The notes under the pieces are model-generated. The model was not told where the DNA came from. It was given only the letters and a program-made list of their open reading frames with translations, and made no database searches. From Paenibacillaceae bacterium (GTDB lineage Bacteria > Bacillota > Bacilli > Paenibacillales > CANHGK01), in the NCBI GenBank assembly GCA_947460235.1, contig CANHGK010000005.1, positions 62,001-126,000 on the forward strand: a DNA stretch of 64,000 nt, written 5' to 3'. The position numbers were made by a program, and so were the translations under genes. Position 1 is the stretch's first letter. Each line of letters begins with the position of its first letter. Shown here piece after piece: positions 41,785 to 51,458 of the stretch.

Positions 41785-42542
41785 ATCGAATTATGACGCA
41801 TGCAAAACTGCCGATGTTAGTAATGGATACGGCTACAACGGCAATGACGGTTGCATGGTTAGGCGATCACGCTGAAGTGACCGGAAGGGTAACAACAGCA
41901 GTGCGTAACCATTCCATCCAATTGGCCCCTGAAATCAAACAATTATTTCATGATGTACAACAAGATCGGTCAATGATTCGCGGAATTGCATGTGGAATTG
42001 GTCCGGGTTCTTATACAGGTGTGCGAATCGGTGTGACGGTTGCAAAAACAATGGCTTGGGCGCTGAACGTTCCGGTATGGGGGGTTTCTAGTATGCTTAG
42101 CTTAGTATGGAGCGGCTGGGCATCCATTACACATGTAGATAACAAACTTGCATGGCTTGTTCCGCTGACGGATGCAAGGCGCGGACAAGCATTTACCGGA
42201 TGGTACGAATATGACGCAACAAATAACCGAATGATGGAAGTTACGCGAGATCAAGTTGCAAATGCGCTTGAATGGATACAGCATATTTTAACAATGGCAG
42301 AAGCCAAAGATGCTGTGATTTATTTGATCGGGGATCTTGATAAGTTTATTGGATTGCCTTTGGATGAGCGCATTCGATATATACAATGTACGATGAATCC
42401 CGAAGGGATGGCATCTGCTGTTCGTCAAGTCATTCAGAATGAGTTACCCACTCTTGCGCACGATTTGGCTCCAAATTATACGCAACTTGCTGAAGCAGAA
42501 CGCAAGTGGATCGAGGCGCAAAAACCACAACTGGAGGTGTGA
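41781..42542 (+). CDS. tsaB: tRNA t6A synthesis protein TsaB
   Basis: 253 residues from the ATG at 41781 (overlapping the tsaE stop as ATGA). MLVMDTATTAMTVAW and GIGPGSYTGVRIGV are the TsaB motifs of this ASKHA-fold partner of TsaD. A C-terminal tail includes PNYTQLAEAERKW. Confidence 0.93.
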   Translation: MNRIMTHAKLPMLVMDTATTAMTVAWLGDHAEVTGRVTTAVRNHSIQLAPEIKQLFHDVQQDRSMIRGIACGIGPGSYTGVRIGVTVAKTMAWALNVPVWGVSSMLSLVWSGWASITHVDNKLAWLVPLTDARRGQAFTGWYEYDATNNRMMEVTRDQVANALEWIQHILTMAEAKDAVIYLIGDLDKFIGLPLDERIRYIQCTMNPEGMASAVRQVIQNELPTLAHDLAPNYTQLAEAERKWIEAQKPQLEV

Positions 42543-42998: not shown

Positions 42999-44054
42999 AT
43001 GAATCAATCAAACGTAACGAAAGAACATGCAACAATTTTGGCGATCGAAACAAGTTGTGACGAAACCGCTGTTGCTGTCGTGAGAAATGGATCTGTACTC
43101 GTATCCAATGTCGTTTCTAGTCAAATCGAATCACATCAACGGTTCGGTGGTGTCGTGCCGGAAGTTGCATCTCGTCAGCATGTAGAAACAATTACACAAA
43201 TGATCGAACAAGCGATTACAAAAGCGGAGCTAAACATCGTTGATATTGATGCGATCGCTGTCACACAAGGGCCTGGTTTGGTTGGTTCATTATTAGTTGG
43301 CATTGTAGCCGCAAAAGCACTTTGTATATCGCTCGATATACCGCTCATTGGCGTGCATCACATCGCGGGACATATTTATGCAAATCAACTCGATCAACCG
43401 CTACATTATCCATTGTTGGCAGTTATCGTATCCGGAGGACATACAGAACTGATTCATTGCCCAGAAGAAGGTATGTTTACTACAATTGGACGGACACGCG
43501 ATGATGCCGTTGGCGAAGCATATGATAAGGTCGCAAGGACATTAGGTTTAGCGTATCCGGGCGGCCCTTTGATTGATCGCATGGCCAATGAGGCTGAAAC
43601 AATGGGCATTGCAGAACACCCTTTTCCTCGGGCGTGGTTGGATTCTGGATCATATGATTTTAGTTTTAGCGGCTTGAAATCGGCGGTCGCACTGCTGGTT
43701 CAACAATCCAAGCAACGTGGAATCGAATTGAATCATCATGCAGTAGCTCGAGGCTTCCAAAATTCAGTGACTGATGTGATCACAACAAAAACATTGCGTG
43801 CTGCAAAGGAGTTTGGTGTGAAACAAATCGTACTTGCAGGCGGTGTTGCTGCGAATCAAGGACTTCGTAAATCGCTCGAAGTAGCGTGTGCAGACAACGC
43901 TATCCCGCTAGCCATCCCACCGTTCGAATTTTGTACGGATAACGCAGCAATGATCGGTGCAGCGGCTTTTTGGAAATGGAAACAAGGTAAGATGGCATCG
44001 TTAGAGATGAACGTAGAACCAATGTTTTCGCTAACCCAGTGGAGTCAGCAATAA
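42999..44054 (+). CDS. tsaD: tRNA N6-adenosine threonylcarbamoyltransferase TsaD
   Basis: 351 residues with [16 protein letters not shown], the metal motif [10 protein letters not shown] and [10 protein letters not shown]. It transfers threonylcarbamoyl to A37 of ANN-reading tRNAs. Last gene of the operon, followed by a strong terminator. In Bacillus subtilis gcp (tsaD) is next to ydiF; here two hybrid kinases are inserted between them. Confidence 0.96.
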
Positions 44055-44072: not shown

Positions 44073-44127
44073 AAAAAGGCTATTCTCTTGGACACGATCG
44101 ATCAAATGTCCAGAAGAATAGCCTTTG
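44073..44127. terminator. Bidirectional terminator after tsaD
   Basis: AAAAAGGCTATTCT pairs with AGAATAGCCTTT, with an inner TGGACA/TGTCCA stem. It separates tsaD from the convergent kinase gene. Confidence 0.9.
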
Positions 44128-44129
44128 TA

Positions 44130-46709
44130 TTAGTAGGTTTCGTTTCGGCGATCAAGCAATTGCTCTAAACGCTCCTTCATGACTTTCAAACTGCGATGTT
44201 GCCTTGTTAATTTTAGATGCGTTTGAATGCGTGAAATGAGTTCCTGACGAGCAAATGGTTTCGGTAAATAGTCATTGGCACCAACTTGGAAGCCTTTGAC
44301 GAGGTCTTCCGTTGAGTTTTTTGCGGTCAAAATAATGACGGGTAATTCATTCGCTTGGAATTTCTGGCGAATGCGTTCACACACTTCGTATCCAGACATG
44401 CGCGGCATCATCACGTCAAGCAGTACAAGATCATATTGTTTACCACTATGCAAATAGGCAAGTGCTTCGATCCCGTCGCTTGCAGTCGTGATCCCGTAGT
44501 TAAGCGGCATTAAATGATTGATAATCACTTGCAAGTTAAGGGGTTCATCATCGACGATAAGCACATTATATTCGCCTTCTGTATCTAACTTCGAATGATT
44601 GATTTGGAAATCTGGCAATTGATCAGCAGATATGACCATTCGATTGCCGACTTGGGTACCTTCACGCATGACATTTGATATCTCAGTTTCCAGGTAGAGT
44701 GGAATCTGGAACGTAAATGCTGTGTAATGATGGATTTCGGAATCAACCCAAATTTCTCCTCCTTGTAATTCAACGAGTTGCTTCGTCACCGCTAACCCAA
44801 GACCCGTTCCGCCAAATTCGCGAGCCACACTGCCATCCACTTGTTCAAATGATTCAAAAATATGATTTTGCTTTTCACGTGGAATGCCAATACCAGTATC
44901 TCGAACTGAAATTTCAACATGATCACCAACGCGCTTCCCGCTAATCGCAACTTCTCCAGACGGGGTAAATTTAATCGAATTTGAAACGAGATTATAAAGA
45001 ATTTGATGCATCCGATTTTCATCGGCGTTAATGAGTGGAAAATCAGGTTCCAAGTCATTGCGTAATTCAATCAATTTGCTTCCGACAAGCGGACGACATA
45101 GATCAATGACCATTTGTGCAACGATGTTTACATCCACTTTTCCGATTCGGAGCGTCAGTTGATTATTGCGCATTCTCGAATAGTCCAAAATATCATTTAC
45201 CAAATTTGAGAGACGTCGTCCGCTTGAAACGATCATCCGCAAATTCCGACGCATTTCTGCATTGGGGTCACCTTGTAAATTATCGGTCATCGATTCTGCA
45301 ATTCCGATGATGCCATTAATAGGTGTACGCAATTCGTGAGAAGTATTGGCCAAAATCTGATCTTTAATGTCATTCATTTTTAATAATTCTTCGTTTTTAG
45401 CATTCAGTTCCCTAGTTCGATCTTCGAGAATGGACGAGTAATTTTGTAATTGTAGATGTTGATCATTAAGTAATTGCGTGTGATGTTCCAATTGCGCCGC
45501 ATATTCATCAGAACGCGAATTTGCATCCGCAATGCGTGAAAACAAAATATACATTTGATAGGAAACGAGAATGAACCAACCGAAAAAACCAATATAAAAT
45601 TGATAGGGTAAAACGTTCAACCCAACTAAAACGTCGTGAATTCCAGTCAGCATGAACGCAACAAATCCTACCGTGAAGCGTTTGGTTGCCAATTCTAATT
45701 TATCTTTGCGAAATAAAAGACCAACTAAAATCGTAACCAATGTTACTAAACAAGCTAGCTGTAAAACTTCGAGCGTCTGATGGATTTGGACGGCGCCAAA
45801 ATAAACAGCAAGTGCACAAATTCCTGAAACGATGGATTGAAAAATTAGTGAATACTGGTTCAAATTCCACTTGCCCTTGCCAATTAACGAAATCATATAC
45901 AGATAAAACACAATCGGCACGAGGTGCGCTAAAATGATTTCTAAATATCCGAAGAATAGTGGTTCAGGATAAACAAATTGGATGATTCGCGTGGAGATGC
46001 AAAGGTAAATACCAAGTGTAAATGAAAATAATGCAAATTTGCCAAACAAATCGTACGAACGCATACGAATTGCGAAAACCAATGAAATAAATGACATGAA
46101 AATCGTGGTTAATCCAAAAAAGACTTCTATCCAATACGATTGCATAATTTTTTGCGCGAGTAATGAATACTCGCCGAAATAAATGGGTCCAAGCAATCCA
46201 ATATTATTTTGATCTGATTGAATTCTTAATGTTAATAACACGGAGTGATGATCACCATTTGGTAGTTGTATATTTGGTATGGAATATAAATTAAGAGGTG
46301 CACCTGCATAGACGACAGGAGTACCTTGATGAATCGCACCGATTTTTGTGATTAATCGTTGGTCGGCATATAACTCGAACACTTGATCAATCGATTCGGC
46401 ATATAGTGCGCAGTTCGTGCAATGATCTGTCTGAACAACCGTTCGGATCCACAACACATCTTTTCCGTTTCGATCAATAATATCTGCAGGAGTGGCGATG
46501 GTTTGCCAACCAGGTGAATTCAGCGGCTCCAATAAACGGGTATATTGCCCATTGTTATCCATTTCTGAATCTCCCCATTGATATTGCCAGGGTCCTGTGA
46601 AGCTCTTCGTTTCATCGATAACTGCCGAACCTGCAAATGCCGAACCAGATTGCAATAGATTGAAACAGGTAAAGATAATGAATGTTGTCAAAATAAAGCG
46701 GCGTATCAT
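44130..46709 (-). CDS. Hybrid histidine kinase with 7TMR-DISM-type sensor, copy 1
   Basis: 859 residues. Signal peptide (1-27), extracytoplasmic DISM-like beta domain with GPWQYQWGDSE and a CTNC pair, seven membrane helices (about 190-400), coiled coil, HisKA NTSHELRTPINGIIG near 453, GHKL domain with N box LVSNSIKFTP, RDTGIGI and GTGLGLAVTK, and a C-terminal receiver with Asp in LVLLDVMMPRMSG near 763 and KPF. No DNA-binding domain. AAAGGAGG lies 7 bases before the ATG at 46709. It follows its paralogue after 14 bases, so both are cotranscribed. Confidence 0.92.
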   Translation of the reverse strand: MIRRFILTTFIIFTCFNLLQSGSAFAGSAVIDETKSFTGPWQYQWGDSEMDNNGQYTRLLEPLNSPGWQTIATPADIIDRNGKDVLWIRTVVQTDHCTNCALYAESIDQVFELYADQRLITKIGAIHQGTPVVYAGAPLNLYSIPNIQLPNGDHHSVLLTLRIQSDQNNIGLLGPIYFGEYSLLAQKIMQSYWIEVFFGLTTIFMSFISLVFAIRMRSYDLFGKFALFSFTLGIYLCISTRIIQFVYPEPLFFGYLEIILAHLVPIVFYLYMISLIGKGKWNLNQYSLIFQSIVSGICALAVYFGAVQIHQTLEVLQLACLVTLVTILVGLLFRKDKLELATKRFTVGFVAFMLTGIHDVLVGLNVLPYQFYIGFFGWFILVSYQMYILFSRIADANSRSDEYAAQLEHHTQLLNDQHLQLQNYSSILEDRTRELNAKNEELLKMNDIKDQILANTSHELRTPINGIIGIAESMTDNLQGDPNAEMRRNLRMIVSSGRRLSNLVNDILDYSRMRNNQLTLRIGKVDVNIVAQMVIDLCRPLVGSKLIELRNDLEPDFPLINADENRMHQILYNLVSNSIKFTPSGEVAISGKRVGDHVEISVRDTGIGIPREKQNHIFESFEQVDGSVAREFGGTGLGLAVTKQLVELQGGEIWVDSEIHHYTAFTFQIPLYLETEISNVMREGTQVGNRMVISADQLPDFQINHSKLDTEGEYNVLIVDDEPLNLQVIINHLMPLNYGITTASDGIEALAYLHSGKQYDLVLLDVMMPRMSGYEVCERIRQKFQANELPVIILTAKNSTEDLVKGFQVGANDYLPKPFARQELISRIQTHLKLTRQHRSLKVMKERLEQLLDRRNETY

Positions 46710-46723
46710 CCGGTAACCTCCTT

Positions 46724-49297
46724 TCAATCCGTGGTGCGATTGCTTTTGTTCTTGATCATTCGGTGATGTTCTGCTAATTGTAATTGCATTTGTACACGTG
46801 CAATCAATTCTTGTTTGGCAAAAGGTTTCGTTAAATAATCATTCGCACCAACTTGGAACCCTCGAACCAAATCATCAATCGTATTTTTTGCGGTAAGCAA
46901 CAAAATCGGAAGTTCGTTTGCTGAATATGATTTTCGTACGCGCAGGCATACGTCATATCCCGATAAGCGAGGCATCATCACATCCAATAGAATGAGGTCG
47001 AATTGTCCTTGTTCTTTCAATATTCCCAGTGCTTCAAAACCATCTCTTGCCGTGACCAGTTCATAATTGTAAGTCATAAGTAGATTTTGTAACACTTGTA
47101 AGTTAATTGGCTCATCATCCACAAGCAAAATACGTTTTTGTGATTGGATTTTATCGTCTTGAAGTGTTACATCCTGTAAATCAGGTGCAATTGGTTCTTC
47201 AAGAAAAATAAAATTGGGATCCAAGGACTGATCGATTGGAACATTTGAGGGATTGATTTCTGCCAATGGAAGAGTAAAACTGAATTCAGTAAACTCGTTC
47301 TCAATACTTTCAACATGGAACGTTCCTTGATGCATTTCAATTAATTGTTTCGTGATGGCTAAGCCGAAACCGCTACTTGAAGTTGATGTGCCGGCAATGG
47401 AATTCGTATCTGCTGGAACTGGTTTTAGCAACTCGGTTAATTGATTCGCTGGAATGCCAATTCCACTATCTCGAACATGTACAACTGCCAAATTGTCACG
47501 AATTTCTGCTCGCACGGTAATCGCACCCTTGAGGGTGAATTTGATCGAGTTAGATAGTAAGTTGTTAAAAATTTGAATTAAACGATTTTCATCAGCAACG
47601 ATTAGCGGGAAATGATGATCAATTTGGTTTACTAAATATACGGGTTTATTCGCAAGCATGGGACTGAAAAGAGAGACAACGGATTGAACCGTGTCAAATA
47701 ATCTTATTTTTTTTGTTTGTAATGTTAGCGTTTGGTTTTTGATGCGTGAAAAATCAACAATATCACTGACGAGATTGTTCAAGCGGCGAGCACTTAACAC
47801 AATCATTTGTAAATTCGTGCGTAATGTTGAATTGATTTTACCTGCCGTTTCGTCTAAAAGCGATTCTGTAATTCCAATAATTCCATTTAACGGCGTGCGG
47901 AGTTCATGTGTCGTATTCGCAAGCATTTGATCTTTTTGTTGACTGATGCGATTTGCATCTTTTAATTTCATGTTCAACTCATATGTTTGCCGATCATTTT
48001 CTGCTAAGCGATTTTGGAGCGCAGCCATTTCATCTGTTGATCGTGAGATGAGATCTTCTAACTGCTGCTCATGTTTGTACCCAACGAGTTGATGGTGATA
48101 GATTCGTCTCGAAATCGCAAGGACGTTGAGGATGATAAACATTAGGTATCCGTAATGCAATACGTTTTTAACCGAGCCATGCAATACGATCGTTGAGTAC
48201 GCATCGATCATTCCAGCGACAGTTAAGACGACAAAACCTGCTAATCCTAGCCATGTGTACAATTCGAAACGCTGACGTAACGTGGAAAACACCCATATGA
48301 TGATGGCAAAATTCAAAGCAGCTTGTATTGGCGCGATCATATCCGCCCAAACGTAAAATTGTAATAGGCCTAGCATATTTCCGAAAAAGATCATCAAGTA
48401 CAGTCCGAATGACAGCAGTGAAAACCAATGTAGGATGCGATAGGGGCCATCACCAATGATTGTCATTAAATATCGGGCCATGATTACACCATTTAGTAAA
48501 TATAGATGCAAGACCAACAACGTCAGCATCGGATGGTCAGGAAACATTAAAAAGATCGCTTTTTCACGAATACAAATCATGAATCCAATTCCGATTGTGT
48601 ACAAGGAAAACCAAAAACTCATTTGTTCCTTACGGATCGATAACCAAGCCAATAAGATGAAAAGACCAGTGAAAAAACCACCCCAACCGATGGTATAAGG
48701 AATAGCAGAGGCATTCAAAATGCTTTGATAGATCGCATTTCGATTGCCTACTATCACGTTTTGATTGATGCCAATGAATCGATCGTCAGATTGAATGCGA
48801 AGAGCAAGCCATTTGTCTTTCATGTTGTGCGGAATATCAAATAAATTCGCGCTTTCACCCTCAAATTGTACCGGTTGCCCAGGTTGGATCGTACCAAAAT
48901 GACCAATTTGTTTACCGTCTACGTAAATTTCATAATTCCTCGTAAGTTCAGCAAACCAAATTGAACAGTCTTCACAACGAACATCGGACAATTTAATGCG
49001 CATCCAAAGCATATCTTCGAGCGAACCATCACTTTTATACGGTCGGTATTGCAAGTTGTGCGGGGAATCCGTCAATTCCCAGCCATTTGCGAAGTTACCA
49101 TCAGATGCCCACTTAAATAATCCATCTACATTTCGAGGTGAGTCTCCCCAGCGATATTGCCAACCATCAAGTAAATTCGATTGCTCAGGCGCTTGATCTG
49201 CAGCCCAAACGATATTTGATAAAAGCACAAACATACCAAACACCAGAGTGAGACTTACTCGCAAAATGCTTTTTAGTACTGGCGGAAAGTTCGGCAT
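46724..49297 (-). CDS. Hybrid histidine kinase with 7TMR-DISM-type sensor, copy 2
   Basis: 857 residues with the same architecture as copy 1: signal peptide, GWQYRWGDSPR, CEDC pair, seven helices from about 200, HisKA NTTHELRTPLNGIIG near 461, N box LLSNSIKFTL, RDSGIGI, FGLAITKQL, and a receiver with LILLDVMMPRLSG near 771. The last G box reads SSSGFGLAI instead of GGTGLGL, a milder match than copy 1. The pair is an old tandem duplication with clear divergence. GAGGGG precedes the ATG. The target of phosphotransfer is not evident. Confidence 0.92.
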   Translation of the reverse strand: MPNFPPVLKSILRVSLTLVFGMFVLLSNIVWAADQAPEQSNLLDGWQYRWGDSPRNVDGLFKWASDGNFANGWELTDSPHNLQYRPYKSDGSLEDMLWMRIKLSDVRCEDCSIWFAELTRNYEIYVDGKQIGHFGTIQPGQPVQFEGESANLFDIPHNMKDKWLALRIQSDDRFIGINQNVIVGNRNAIYQSILNASAIPYTIGWGGFFTGLFILLAWLSIRKEQMSFWFSLYTIGIGFMICIREKAIFLMFPDHPMLTLLVLHLYLLNGVIMARYLMTIIGDGPYRILHWFSLLSFGLYLMIFFGNMLGLLQFYVWADMIAPIQAALNFAIIIWVFSTLRQRFELYTWLGLAGFVVLTVAGMIDAYSTIVLHGSVKNVLHYGYLMFIILNVLAISRRIYHHQLVGYKHEQQLEDLISRSTDEMAALQNRLAENDRQTYELNMKLKDANRISQQKDQMLANTTHELRTPLNGIIGITESLLDETAGKINSTLRTNLQMIVLSARRLNNLVSDIVDFSRIKNQTLTLQTKKIRLFDTVQSVVSLFSPMLANKPVYLVNQIDHHFPLIVADENRLIQIFNNLLSNSIKFTLKGAITVRAEIRDNLAVVHVRDSGIGIPANQLTELLKPVPADTNSIAGTSTSSSGFGLAITKQLIEMHQGTFHVESIENEFTEFSFTLPLAEINPSNVPIDQSLDPNFIFLEEPIAPDLQDVTLQDDKIQSQKRILLVDDEPINLQVLQNLLMTYNYELVTARDGFEALGILKEQGQFDLILLDVMMPRLSGYDVCLRVRKSYSANELPILLLTAKNTIDDLVRGFQVGANDYLTKPFAKQELIARVQMQLQLAEHHRMIKNKSNRTTD

Positions 49298-49402
49298 GAA
49301 TTTCCCCTCTTTTCGATAGATACTATTGTTAGTAAGTTTTCAACAAAAACAAAAAAAAATCCTGCACAATTGCACCATGCTTCCAATTCCCAGTCATTTT
49401 CA

Positions 49403-49530
49403 TGTGGATAAAGTTATCCACAACCCTGTGGAATTGTGGATTCGAATCTTGTCGAAACCGTGAAATACTTGTCAAAATGACGTTTTAATCTTTGGCAACC
49501 TGTGGATATGTCTGTGCACAAGGTGGATAA
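49403..49530. other. Cluster of DnaA boxes
   Basis: Within 128 bases: TGTGGATAA (49403-49411) and TTATCCACA (49414-49422), two perfect boxes facing each other; TGTGGAATT (49427), TGTGGATTC (49435), TGTGGATAT (49501), TGTGCACAA (49513) and GGTGGATAA (49522), with one or two mismatches. No dnaA or dnaN is nearby, so this is unlikely to be oriC. It sits in the 250-base gap between the kinase pair and the ABC-F gene. Confidence 0.8.
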
Positions 49531-49547
49531 CATTTTGAAAAACGAAT

Positions 49548-51458
49548 TTACAACGTATCGGAAAGGATAGACCACTCTTCCATTGTTACTAATAATTTGC
49601 TTTGAGTGTCTTTAAGTTCTTGATCTGCTTGTTTCCATTTTGCATAATCTGCAGCTATGGTTTCGTCGGCACAAATTGCCTCAAGTTCAGCGGAGCGCTC
49701 TTCAAGCGCTGCGATTTCATGTTCTAATTGTTCAAGTTTTCGGCGTTGTTGGCGTTGTTCGCGGCTCGTTTCACGATGAATGGTGTTCGATGTTGATTTG
49801 TTTTGTTCTGCTGTTTCTTTTTGCAATCGTTCCAGTTCGCGAACTTTCTTTTGCTCGAATTGGAGTTTTACATCATCATACGTTCCTTCATACGAAGTTA
49901 GGTTTTTCGGGTCCAAGTACAACACACGATCGCCAATTTTGTTTAAAAAATAACGGTCATGCGAAATCATTAACATGGTGCCATCAAATTCGAGTAACGC
50001 ATCTTCGACGGCTTCACGTGTCCATAAATCCAAATGGTTCGTAGGCTCATCAAGTAAAAGTACGTTTGGTTCGGTCAACATAAGCAAACACCAGACAACG
50101 CGTGCTTTCTCACCACCGCTCAGACCGCGGATCGTACGTTTCACATCATCTCCACTAAAATGAAGTCGCCCAAGTGCACCGCGAATGACTTTCTCTTCTA
50201 AATGAGCGAATGCAGACCACACCGTTTCTAACACGGTCAGATCTGGTTGAAGATTACTCAATTCCTGATCATAGTAGCCTGGTTTGACGCCAGAACCCCA
50301 TTTAACGAGCCAATCGGCATGTTCAGGTGAACCGTTATCATAGCAATCACGCAATTTACGAAGCAATGTTGTTTTGCCGACCCCATTCGGGCCAAGAATT
50401 GTTACAGATTCCCCGCGGCAAATATGAAAGCTAACCGTTTGTTCGATCAATTTTAATTGTTGGACGTTTAACACATCTTTACCAGTGCGCTGCGTTGGTG
50501 GAAAACGAAGGGCGACTTTGGTTGGATCAGCCGTAGGTGCTTCAACGCGGTCCATGGCATCCAATTGATTTCGGCGACTTTTGGCGCGTTTGCTTGTAGA
50601 TGCTCTCGCGATGTTTCGTTGAATAAATTCTTCTAATTTGGATATTTGTTCTTGTTGCTTATTGAACGCGTAACCTTGCAGTTCACGCTCGGCCGCTTTG
50701 GATGCGGTGTAGCGTGTATAGTCGCCCTTATATGTGCTGACTTTTCCGTTCTCAATTTCCCATATCATTTTGGAGGAGGCGTCGAGAAAGTAGCGGTCAT
50801 GGGATACGGAAATGATTGCGCCCGGAAACGAACCTAGATAGTTCTCAAGCCATTCCAATGTTTCGAGATCCAAATGATTCGTTGGCTCGTCCAAAAGTAA
50901 CAAATCAGGTTTTTGTAATAATAATTTGGCAAGACCAAGTCTCGTTTTTTGACCGCCACTTAACGTTGCAATTGGCTGCGACCATTGTTCTGGAGGAAAC
51001 TTCATCCCGGTTAAGACGCTGCGCAATTGGGCATCCATCGCATATCCATCAGCTTCAGCAAATTGTTTAGATAACTCATCATATTGTTTGCTGACGCGAT
51101 TCCAAAGGTGTTCATTGGTATGTAGTTCGGGATCAGCCATCTGAGTTTCTAGATCGCGCAATTGTTTTTCCATTTGGCGAAGCGGTTCAAGCACCGTGCG
51201 CATTTCGTGTTCCACACTATGTAAAGCGTCCATATGGACTTGTTGCGGCAAATAGCCAAGTTTAAGACCAGGAATTAGTTGGAGATGACCGCTATCCGGT
51301 TTTTGAATTCCAGCAAGGATTTTAAGTAACGTCGATTTACCGGCGCCGTTCACCCCAACGAGTCCGATGCGATCACGACCGCCAACTTGGACGGATACAT
51401 TTTCAAAAATCGTCCGATCACCATACATGCATCCTAATTGATTTGTTTGTAAGTTCAT
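49548..51458 (-). CDS. ydiF: ABC-F family ATPase (YdiF-like)
   Basis: 636 residues with two ABC domains and no membrane helices. Walker A GVNGAGKST and GPNGVGKTT, signatures LSGGQKTRLGL and LSGGEKARVVW, Walker B LLLLDEPTNHLDL and VLLLDEPTNHLDL. The linker is rich in charged residues (RASTSKRAKSRRNQLDAMDR) and the C terminus is a coiled coil from about 540. ABC-F proteins act on the ribosome, as translation factors or in antibiotic protection. Position before moaC matches Bacillus subtilis ydiF. GGGAGGG precedes the ATG. Confidence 0.93.
   Translation of the reverse strand: MNLQTNQLGCMYGDRTIFENVSVQVGGRDRIGLVGVNGAGKSTLLKILAGIQKPDSGHLQLIPGLKLGYLPQQVHMDALHSVEHEMRTVLEPLRQMEKQLRDLETQMADPELHTNEHLWNRVSKQYDELSKQFAEADGYAMDAQLRSVLTGMKFPPEQWSQPIATLSGGQKTRLGLAKLLLQKPDLLLLDEPTNHLDLETLEWLENYLGSFPGAIISVSHDRYFLDASSKMIWEIENGKVSTYKGDYTRYTASKAAERELQGYAFNKQQEQISKLEEFIQRNIARASTSKRAKSRRNQLDAMDRVEAPTADPTKVALRFPPTQRTGKDVLNVQQLKLIEQTVSFHICRGESVTILGPNGVGKTTLLRKLRDCYDNGSPEHADWLVKWGSGVKPGYYDQELSNLQPDLTVLETVWSAFAHLEEKVIRGALGRLHFSGDDVKRTIRGLSGGEKARVVWCLLMLTEPNVLLLDEPTNHLDLWTREAVEDALLEFDGTMLMISHDRYFLNKIGDRVLYLDPKNLTSYEGTYDDVKLQFEQKKVRELERLQKETAEQNKSTSNTIHRETSREQRQQRRKLEQLEHEIAALEERSAELEAICADETIAADYAKWKQADQELKDTQSKLLVTMEEWSILSDTL

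Follow-up and report, generated by a model that had tools for sequence, protein, structure and literature searches.

The non-coding spacer in front of a ydiF-type gene contains a genuine cluster of DnaA boxes, at positions 49403-49530 of the window (the whole 64-kb stretch of DNA that was analysed). The boxes are in excess over chance, they occupy an orthologous position, their spacing and helical phase are conserved, and they are better preserved than the DNA that separates them. With a probability of about 0.78, the cluster acts as an orthologous site at which DnaA binds cooperatively and is thereby withheld from oriC.

The cluster and its genomic setting

Within the span, five boxes are found at no more than one mismatch from TTATNCACA (Table 1). 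Two of these, 49403(-) and 49414(+), are perfect and stand face to face, just as the original prediction had said, with a 2-bp gap between them. It had also counted seven sites in 128 bases. The dense cluster is real, but only five sites reach the one-mismatch level; the other two are weaker, with two and three mismatches. Another two-mismatch site, at 49512(+), overlaps the box at 49513(-).

Table 1. Features of the tsaD-ydiF region, in window coordinates
Feature	Position	Strand	Remarks
tsaD (gcp), ancestral cluster neighbour besides ydiF	42999..44054	+	Pfam TsaD, E 6e-92
Hybrid histidine kinase 2	44130..46727	-	same domain set as kinase 1; 4-bp overlap with kinase 1
Hybrid histidine kinase 1	46724..49297	-	7TM region (below cut-off), HisKA, HATPase, receiver
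Non-coding spacer bearing the cluster	49298..49547		GC 0.36 versus 0.43 for the window
Boxes at one mismatch or less	49403(-), 49414(+), 49501(-), 49513(-), 49522(-)		
Face-to-face perfect TTATCCACA pair	49403..49422		TGTGGATAA-AG-TTATCCACA, 2-bp gap
Two weak DnaA-box-like sites	49427..49443	-	count of seven reached only with these
Weak site AATTCCACA	49427-49435		three mismatches
Weak site GAATCCACA	49435-49443		two mismatches
Triad of direct boxes ATATCCACA, TTGTGCACA, TTATCCACC	49501..49530	-	starts 12 and 9 bp apart
ydiF-type ABC-F ATPase gene, 3' end toward the cluster	49548..51458	-	Pfam ABC_tran x2, ABC_tran_Xtn, ABC_tran_CTD

The best 150 bp of the entire window coincide with the cluster span and score 7, versus 3 for the next independent place, and this score was equalled in one of 300 dinucleotide shuffles of the whole window. 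When the spacer alone was shuffled 5000 times, at most four boxes were obtained, as against the five observed. Window-wide, boxes with up to one mismatch are no more frequent than expected (74 versus 79). The cluster is at the weak end of its kind: of its five boxes, three have a mismatch, and 65 of the 92 tsaD-ydiF intervals of relatives score 8 or more. No ORF of at least 60 aa in the ORF list of the window runs over it, and the spacer DNA matched nothing when searched against plasmids.

The gene order is tsaD(+), kinase 2(-), kinase 1(-), cluster, ydiF(-). The predicted location between the tsaD side and the ABC-F gene agrees with the gene borders, kinase 1 starting at 49297, ydiF ending at 49548 and tsaD ending at 44054. 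So does the predicted lack of an oriC context, the bipartite oriC of this genome being situated around dnaA on another contig. Between the convergent tsaD and kinase 2 genes, at 44075-44127, there is a strong hairpin with a U-rich end (fold z-score -4.06), likely a two-way terminator. Upstream of tsaD, a partial match to the TsaD family at 41895-42272 is probably tsaB, a name that is inferred.

The DnaA of the organism is of the ordinary type, and its bipartite oriC carries the same boxes as the cluster. Exact TTATNCACA occurs 122 times in the 2.72-Mb genome, versus 66 times for the control, the same pattern reversed. Perfect TTATCCACA sites number 29 in the genome, with dense groups at oriC, in the window cluster, and on two other contigs at C10:21.5 kb and C14:11.4 kb. 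The former of these (C10:21525-21641) scores 9, more than the window cluster, and has two cold-shock-type genes nearby; it is absent from the B. subtilis cluster loci given in the available part of PMC4447404. The latter (C14:11341-11457) scores 8 and is flanked by a tRNA-adenosine-deaminase-type (tadA-like) gene and a PilZ-domain gene. A three-box group with score 5 near a contig end (C31:23939-24015) is possibly a piece of a larger cluster.

The two kinases are 35% identical to each other, and kinase 2 has its closest homologues among the paralogues on other contigs of this genome. Seven further paralogues bring the number of hybrid kinases of this relationship, the pair itself counted, to at least nine in these 2.7 Mb (nine candidates scored), a lineage expansion. 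Among the stretches from 119 relatives, no close homologues of either kinase were found beside the cluster. There are only weak matches to the kinase core, at 21-28% identity and at 42% in one short receiver-domain piece, in seven of 120 stretches (L165, L169, L191, L195, L197, L200, L201). Four of these (L169, L191, L200, L201) have a significant cluster by tsaD, and their kinase matches are on the ydiF side; these insertions are therefore different from that of the window. An insertion shared with relatives is thus rejected. The idea that the cluster was kept although two kinase genes had been inserted beside it fits these observations.

Conservation within and beyond Bacilli

The sample covered 119 genomes from the order and the class, each represented by its sequence downstream of ydiF. 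It goes back to a manual choice of 120 regions, made for genus spread among the genomes in which YdiF had a match (95 at the order level, 233 at the class level); L149 came from a genome already represented by another piece and was removed. In the searched set, the family consists of this genome only and the order of 99 genomes. A cluster was considered significant if its best 150-bp box score was above those of all 60 shuffles. A YdiF search of the genome contigs gave one distant ABC protein locus only.

In 92 of the 119 stretches tsaD is present, each time tail to tail with ydiF. A significant cluster occurs in 84 of these, without exception within the tsaD-ydiF interval, and the interval scores range from 6 to 13, versus a maximum of 3 in control stretches beyond tsaD (n=85). 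Sixteen of the 27 stretches without tsaD also contain a cluster. For the remaining 11, tsaD was found separately, and in three of them (G131, G172 and G210, scored from the box listing without shuffling) it is the tsaD end that carries the cluster. Conversely, ten genomes have the cluster with ydiF and a distant tsaD that could be examined, and there the tsaD end has none. Since the cluster stays with ydiF or with tsaD after the genes have parted, the conserved item is the cluster itself, which may lose either neighbour.

In total, 103 of the 119 genomes and 31 of the 38 sampled families (29 plus f38 and f49) have the cluster. The comparison of the spacer across Bacilli that the original prediction had proposed thus reveals boxes in the large majority of relatives instead of their absence in all of them. 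The cluster is missing in 16 genomes (G002, G018, G081, G199, G227, G321, G197, G114, G170, G266, G317, G104 with a tie at score 4, G200, G101, G220 and G142), which include every sampled member of families f3, f14, f26, f27, f36, f46 and f57.

Sixty genomes represent other classes of the phylum, the first 20 taken from the upper TsaD match list (G362 from lower) and 40 from farther down. Downstream of tsaD, 50 have a box peak above all 100 shuffles, and in 41 of the 60 the peak scores at least 6 and lies no more than 600 bp from the tsaD end; ten have no significant peak there. In L250, L254 and L261, the cluster is 0.85-2.6 kb off the tsaD end, perhaps due to gene insertions like that of the window. 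In the tsaD region of E. coli K-12, the only control from outside the phylum, boxes occur singly at three scattered places and form no cluster. Given the lack of a significant cluster in 16 of 119 Bacilli genomes and in 10 of the 60 from other classes, the element is not indispensable.

Where dnaA and ydiF share a contig (35 genomes), the distance between the locus and dnaA is 0.057-0.282 of the chromosome (median 0.116). The proximity to the origin is known from relatives, the draft genome of this organism having its oriC on a separate contig. It is no proof of selection on distance, because it follows the gene order and is common to two cluster-less genomes, G317 and G170. A selected distance from oriC was thus discarded as an explanation, conserved gene order accounting for it.

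The element type as such is already known. The wide conservation of the cluster and of its spacing is apparently unreported, with uncertain priority: the literature searched, Okumura 2012 and Ishikawa 2007 set aside, contains no report of either across Bacilli and beyond.

Box geometry and proposed role

Read from ydiF, the commonest same-strand spacings are 9, 12 and 21 bp, present in 79, 68 and 53 of 101 cluster loci (window included), and 24 of these 101 loci have a minus-plus pair 11 bp apart. The same three spacings occur in 40, 35 and 34 of 46 other-class loci; 14 of the 60 loci, which have no cluster near the tsaD end, were omitted, and L250, with its cluster 2.2 kb away, was retained. 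The window, represented here by its five strong sites only, fits this pattern with triad starts 9 and 12 bp apart and a face-to-face pair 11 bp apart. According to the accessible text of one study, E. coli DnaA in vivo favours box pairs 2-3 bp apart (PMC11317965), and the window pairs agree with this preference, the 12-bp direct pair having a 3-bp gap and the 11-bp inverted pair a 2-bp gap. The boxes are mostly directed toward tsaD, in 183 of 258 cases in 29 Bacilli family representatives and in 254 of 279 in the 46 other-class loci.

Same-strand distances of 9-110 bp in the 29 representatives follow a period of about 10.7 bp, with a resultant of 0.471 for 471 pairs versus a maximum of 0.177 in 500 runs of a jitter null, figures that overstate independence, as the genomes share ancestry. 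The other-class loci reach a resultant of 0.36 at 10.7 bp, versus a null maximum of 0.176, and their best period tried is about 11 bp. Among 22 loci of one family, the agreement per column is 0.88 in boxes versus 0.55 in inter-box DNA, which means that selection kept the boxes while the DNA between them drifted. Such a conserved arrangement points to an oligomer of ordered build more than to storage on scattered boxes, and it exceeds what passive titration by a plain sink would need.

The gcp-ydiF cluster of B. subtilis presumably belongs to the set of six from Okumura 2012. The cluster by gcp (tsaD) and ydiF that the original prediction had named for this species corresponds to peak 4 of a genome-wide in vitro map of B. 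subtilis DnaA, a region of 10 sites that is assigned there 'downstream of gcp; downstream of ydiF' (PMC4447404). In the available portion of that paper, the region is among the strongest DnaA regions in vitro, with an apparent Kd of 0.15 uM for ATP-DnaA and 0.33 uM for ADP-DnaA, and at 55 nM its recovery is 16-fold greater with ATP- than with ADP-DnaA (PMC4447404). Deletion of six clusters outside oriC leads to early initiation, as summarized in sections of two reviews; the advance is strong only upon loss of all six, and one cluster put back gives partial relief (PMC5295017; PMC13220808). A section of one of them nevertheless denies such clusters any significant role when B. subtilis initiates replication (PMC5295017), and a part of the other states that an approximately 10-fold overproduction of DnaA does not cause over-initiation (PMC13220808).

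From these parallels we infer that DnaA binds the cluster in this organism, with a preference for the ATP form, and that the site has a titrating function. DnaA, preferably with ATP, would occupy both perfect face-to-face boxes as well as the phased triad, assembling cooperatively along one face of the helix. DnaA bound in this way would be kept away from oriC. The origin-proximal cluster would be copied early, doubling the sink soon after initiation, and the doubled sink would delay and steady initiation. The kinase pair would have been inserted later between tsaD and the cluster, leaving the latter intact.

Chance, or a terminator formed by the inverted pair, is a very improbable origin of the cluster. 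One shuffle of the window in 300 does reach the same score and the region is able to fold, but a chance cluster is refuted by the genome comparison, in which 103 of 119 Bacilli and 50 of 60 other-class genomes keep the boxes. A terminator or another RNA element was rejected on RNA fold z-scores of only -1.84 and 0.53, and no terminator-like site was found in 49150-49700. It is harder to dismiss, though still unlikely, that the cluster forms a geometry-dependent complex that alters DnaA, as a functional analogue of E. coli datA or DARS. Storage would not require spacing, orientation and helical phase to be so well conserved, and the B. subtilis locus prefers ATP-DnaA in the accessible part of PMC4447404. 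However, cooperative binding alone could require the same geometry, and passages of two reviews describe B. subtilis as devoid of IHF, Hda, datA and DARS and as having no known factor that converts DnaA-ATP to DnaA-ADP (PMC5295017; PMC13220808).

Control of the kinases by DnaA is possible, as a candidate only. The cluster is situated 106-233 bp upstream of the kinase 1 ATG, in a 250-bp spacer with nothing else between, and DnaA is an established transcription factor, as the available text of PMC8203912 has it. It could be imagined that the cluster is now mainly an operator, at which DnaA bound at -106 to -233 represses or activates the kinase operon and couples it to the replication status. 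This is doubtful, given that a consensus scan of the spacer detected no sigma-A-like promoter on the minus strand and that no relative has the same kinase insertion; moreover, the clusters of most relatives lie between gene ends without such kinases, so that this was not the ancestral role. A broader proposal, somewhat less doubtful but still tentative, combines a phylum-old, geometry-constrained ATP-DnaA assembly site on the downstream side of tsaD, setting the timing of initiation across most of the phylum, with a DnaA-responsive switch before the kinase operon in this lineage. Instead of serving as a passive sink, the directed boxes in helical phase would then give rise to a DnaA oligomer of defined structure.

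Judged by its distribution, the cluster seems to be an old control element for DNA replication. The B. subtilis clusters individually seem dispensable, which leaves their importance in doubt; the shared neighbours, box direction and helical spacing in most sampled Bacilli and other classes argue for lasting selection. More than 100 natural versions of one element are now at hand for in vitro comparison.

Comparison with known systems

The datA, DARS1 and DARS2 loci of E. coli are likewise non-coding DnaA-box clusters that act on initiation from outside oriC. They differ in their gene neighbours and in their helpers IHF and Fis, and their genomic place is not matched, the E. coli tsaD region having its three scattered boxes instead of a cluster. 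A 2025 study describes, in its available part, an enrichment of boxes near the origin that is conserved among E. coli strains and Salmonella (PMC12371093), at a different scale and in a different phylum from the tsaD-side cluster. The sda promoter of B. subtilis also has a DnaA cluster by a gene tied to histidine kinase signalling; sda, however, is a kinase inhibitor gene, whereas the genes adjacent to the window cluster encode the kinases themselves.

The B. subtilis gcp-ydiF cluster shares with that of the window its flanking genes, its intergenic location, its many boxes and its place outside oriC. The window cluster is cut off from tsaD by the kinase genes and is thereby upstream of a gene start, whereas its B. 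subtilis counterpart lies between two gene ends, and strong boxes are fewer (five at up to one mismatch, versus the 10 sites reported for B. subtilis). The window cluster has the following features of the B. subtilis type: dense non-coding boxes outside oriC, a position between tsaD and ydiF, and the 9/12/21 triad with the 11-bp inverted pair common to relatives, the B. subtilis letters not being among those compared. The best reading makes it orthologous to the DnaA-box cluster between gcp and ydiF in B. subtilis.
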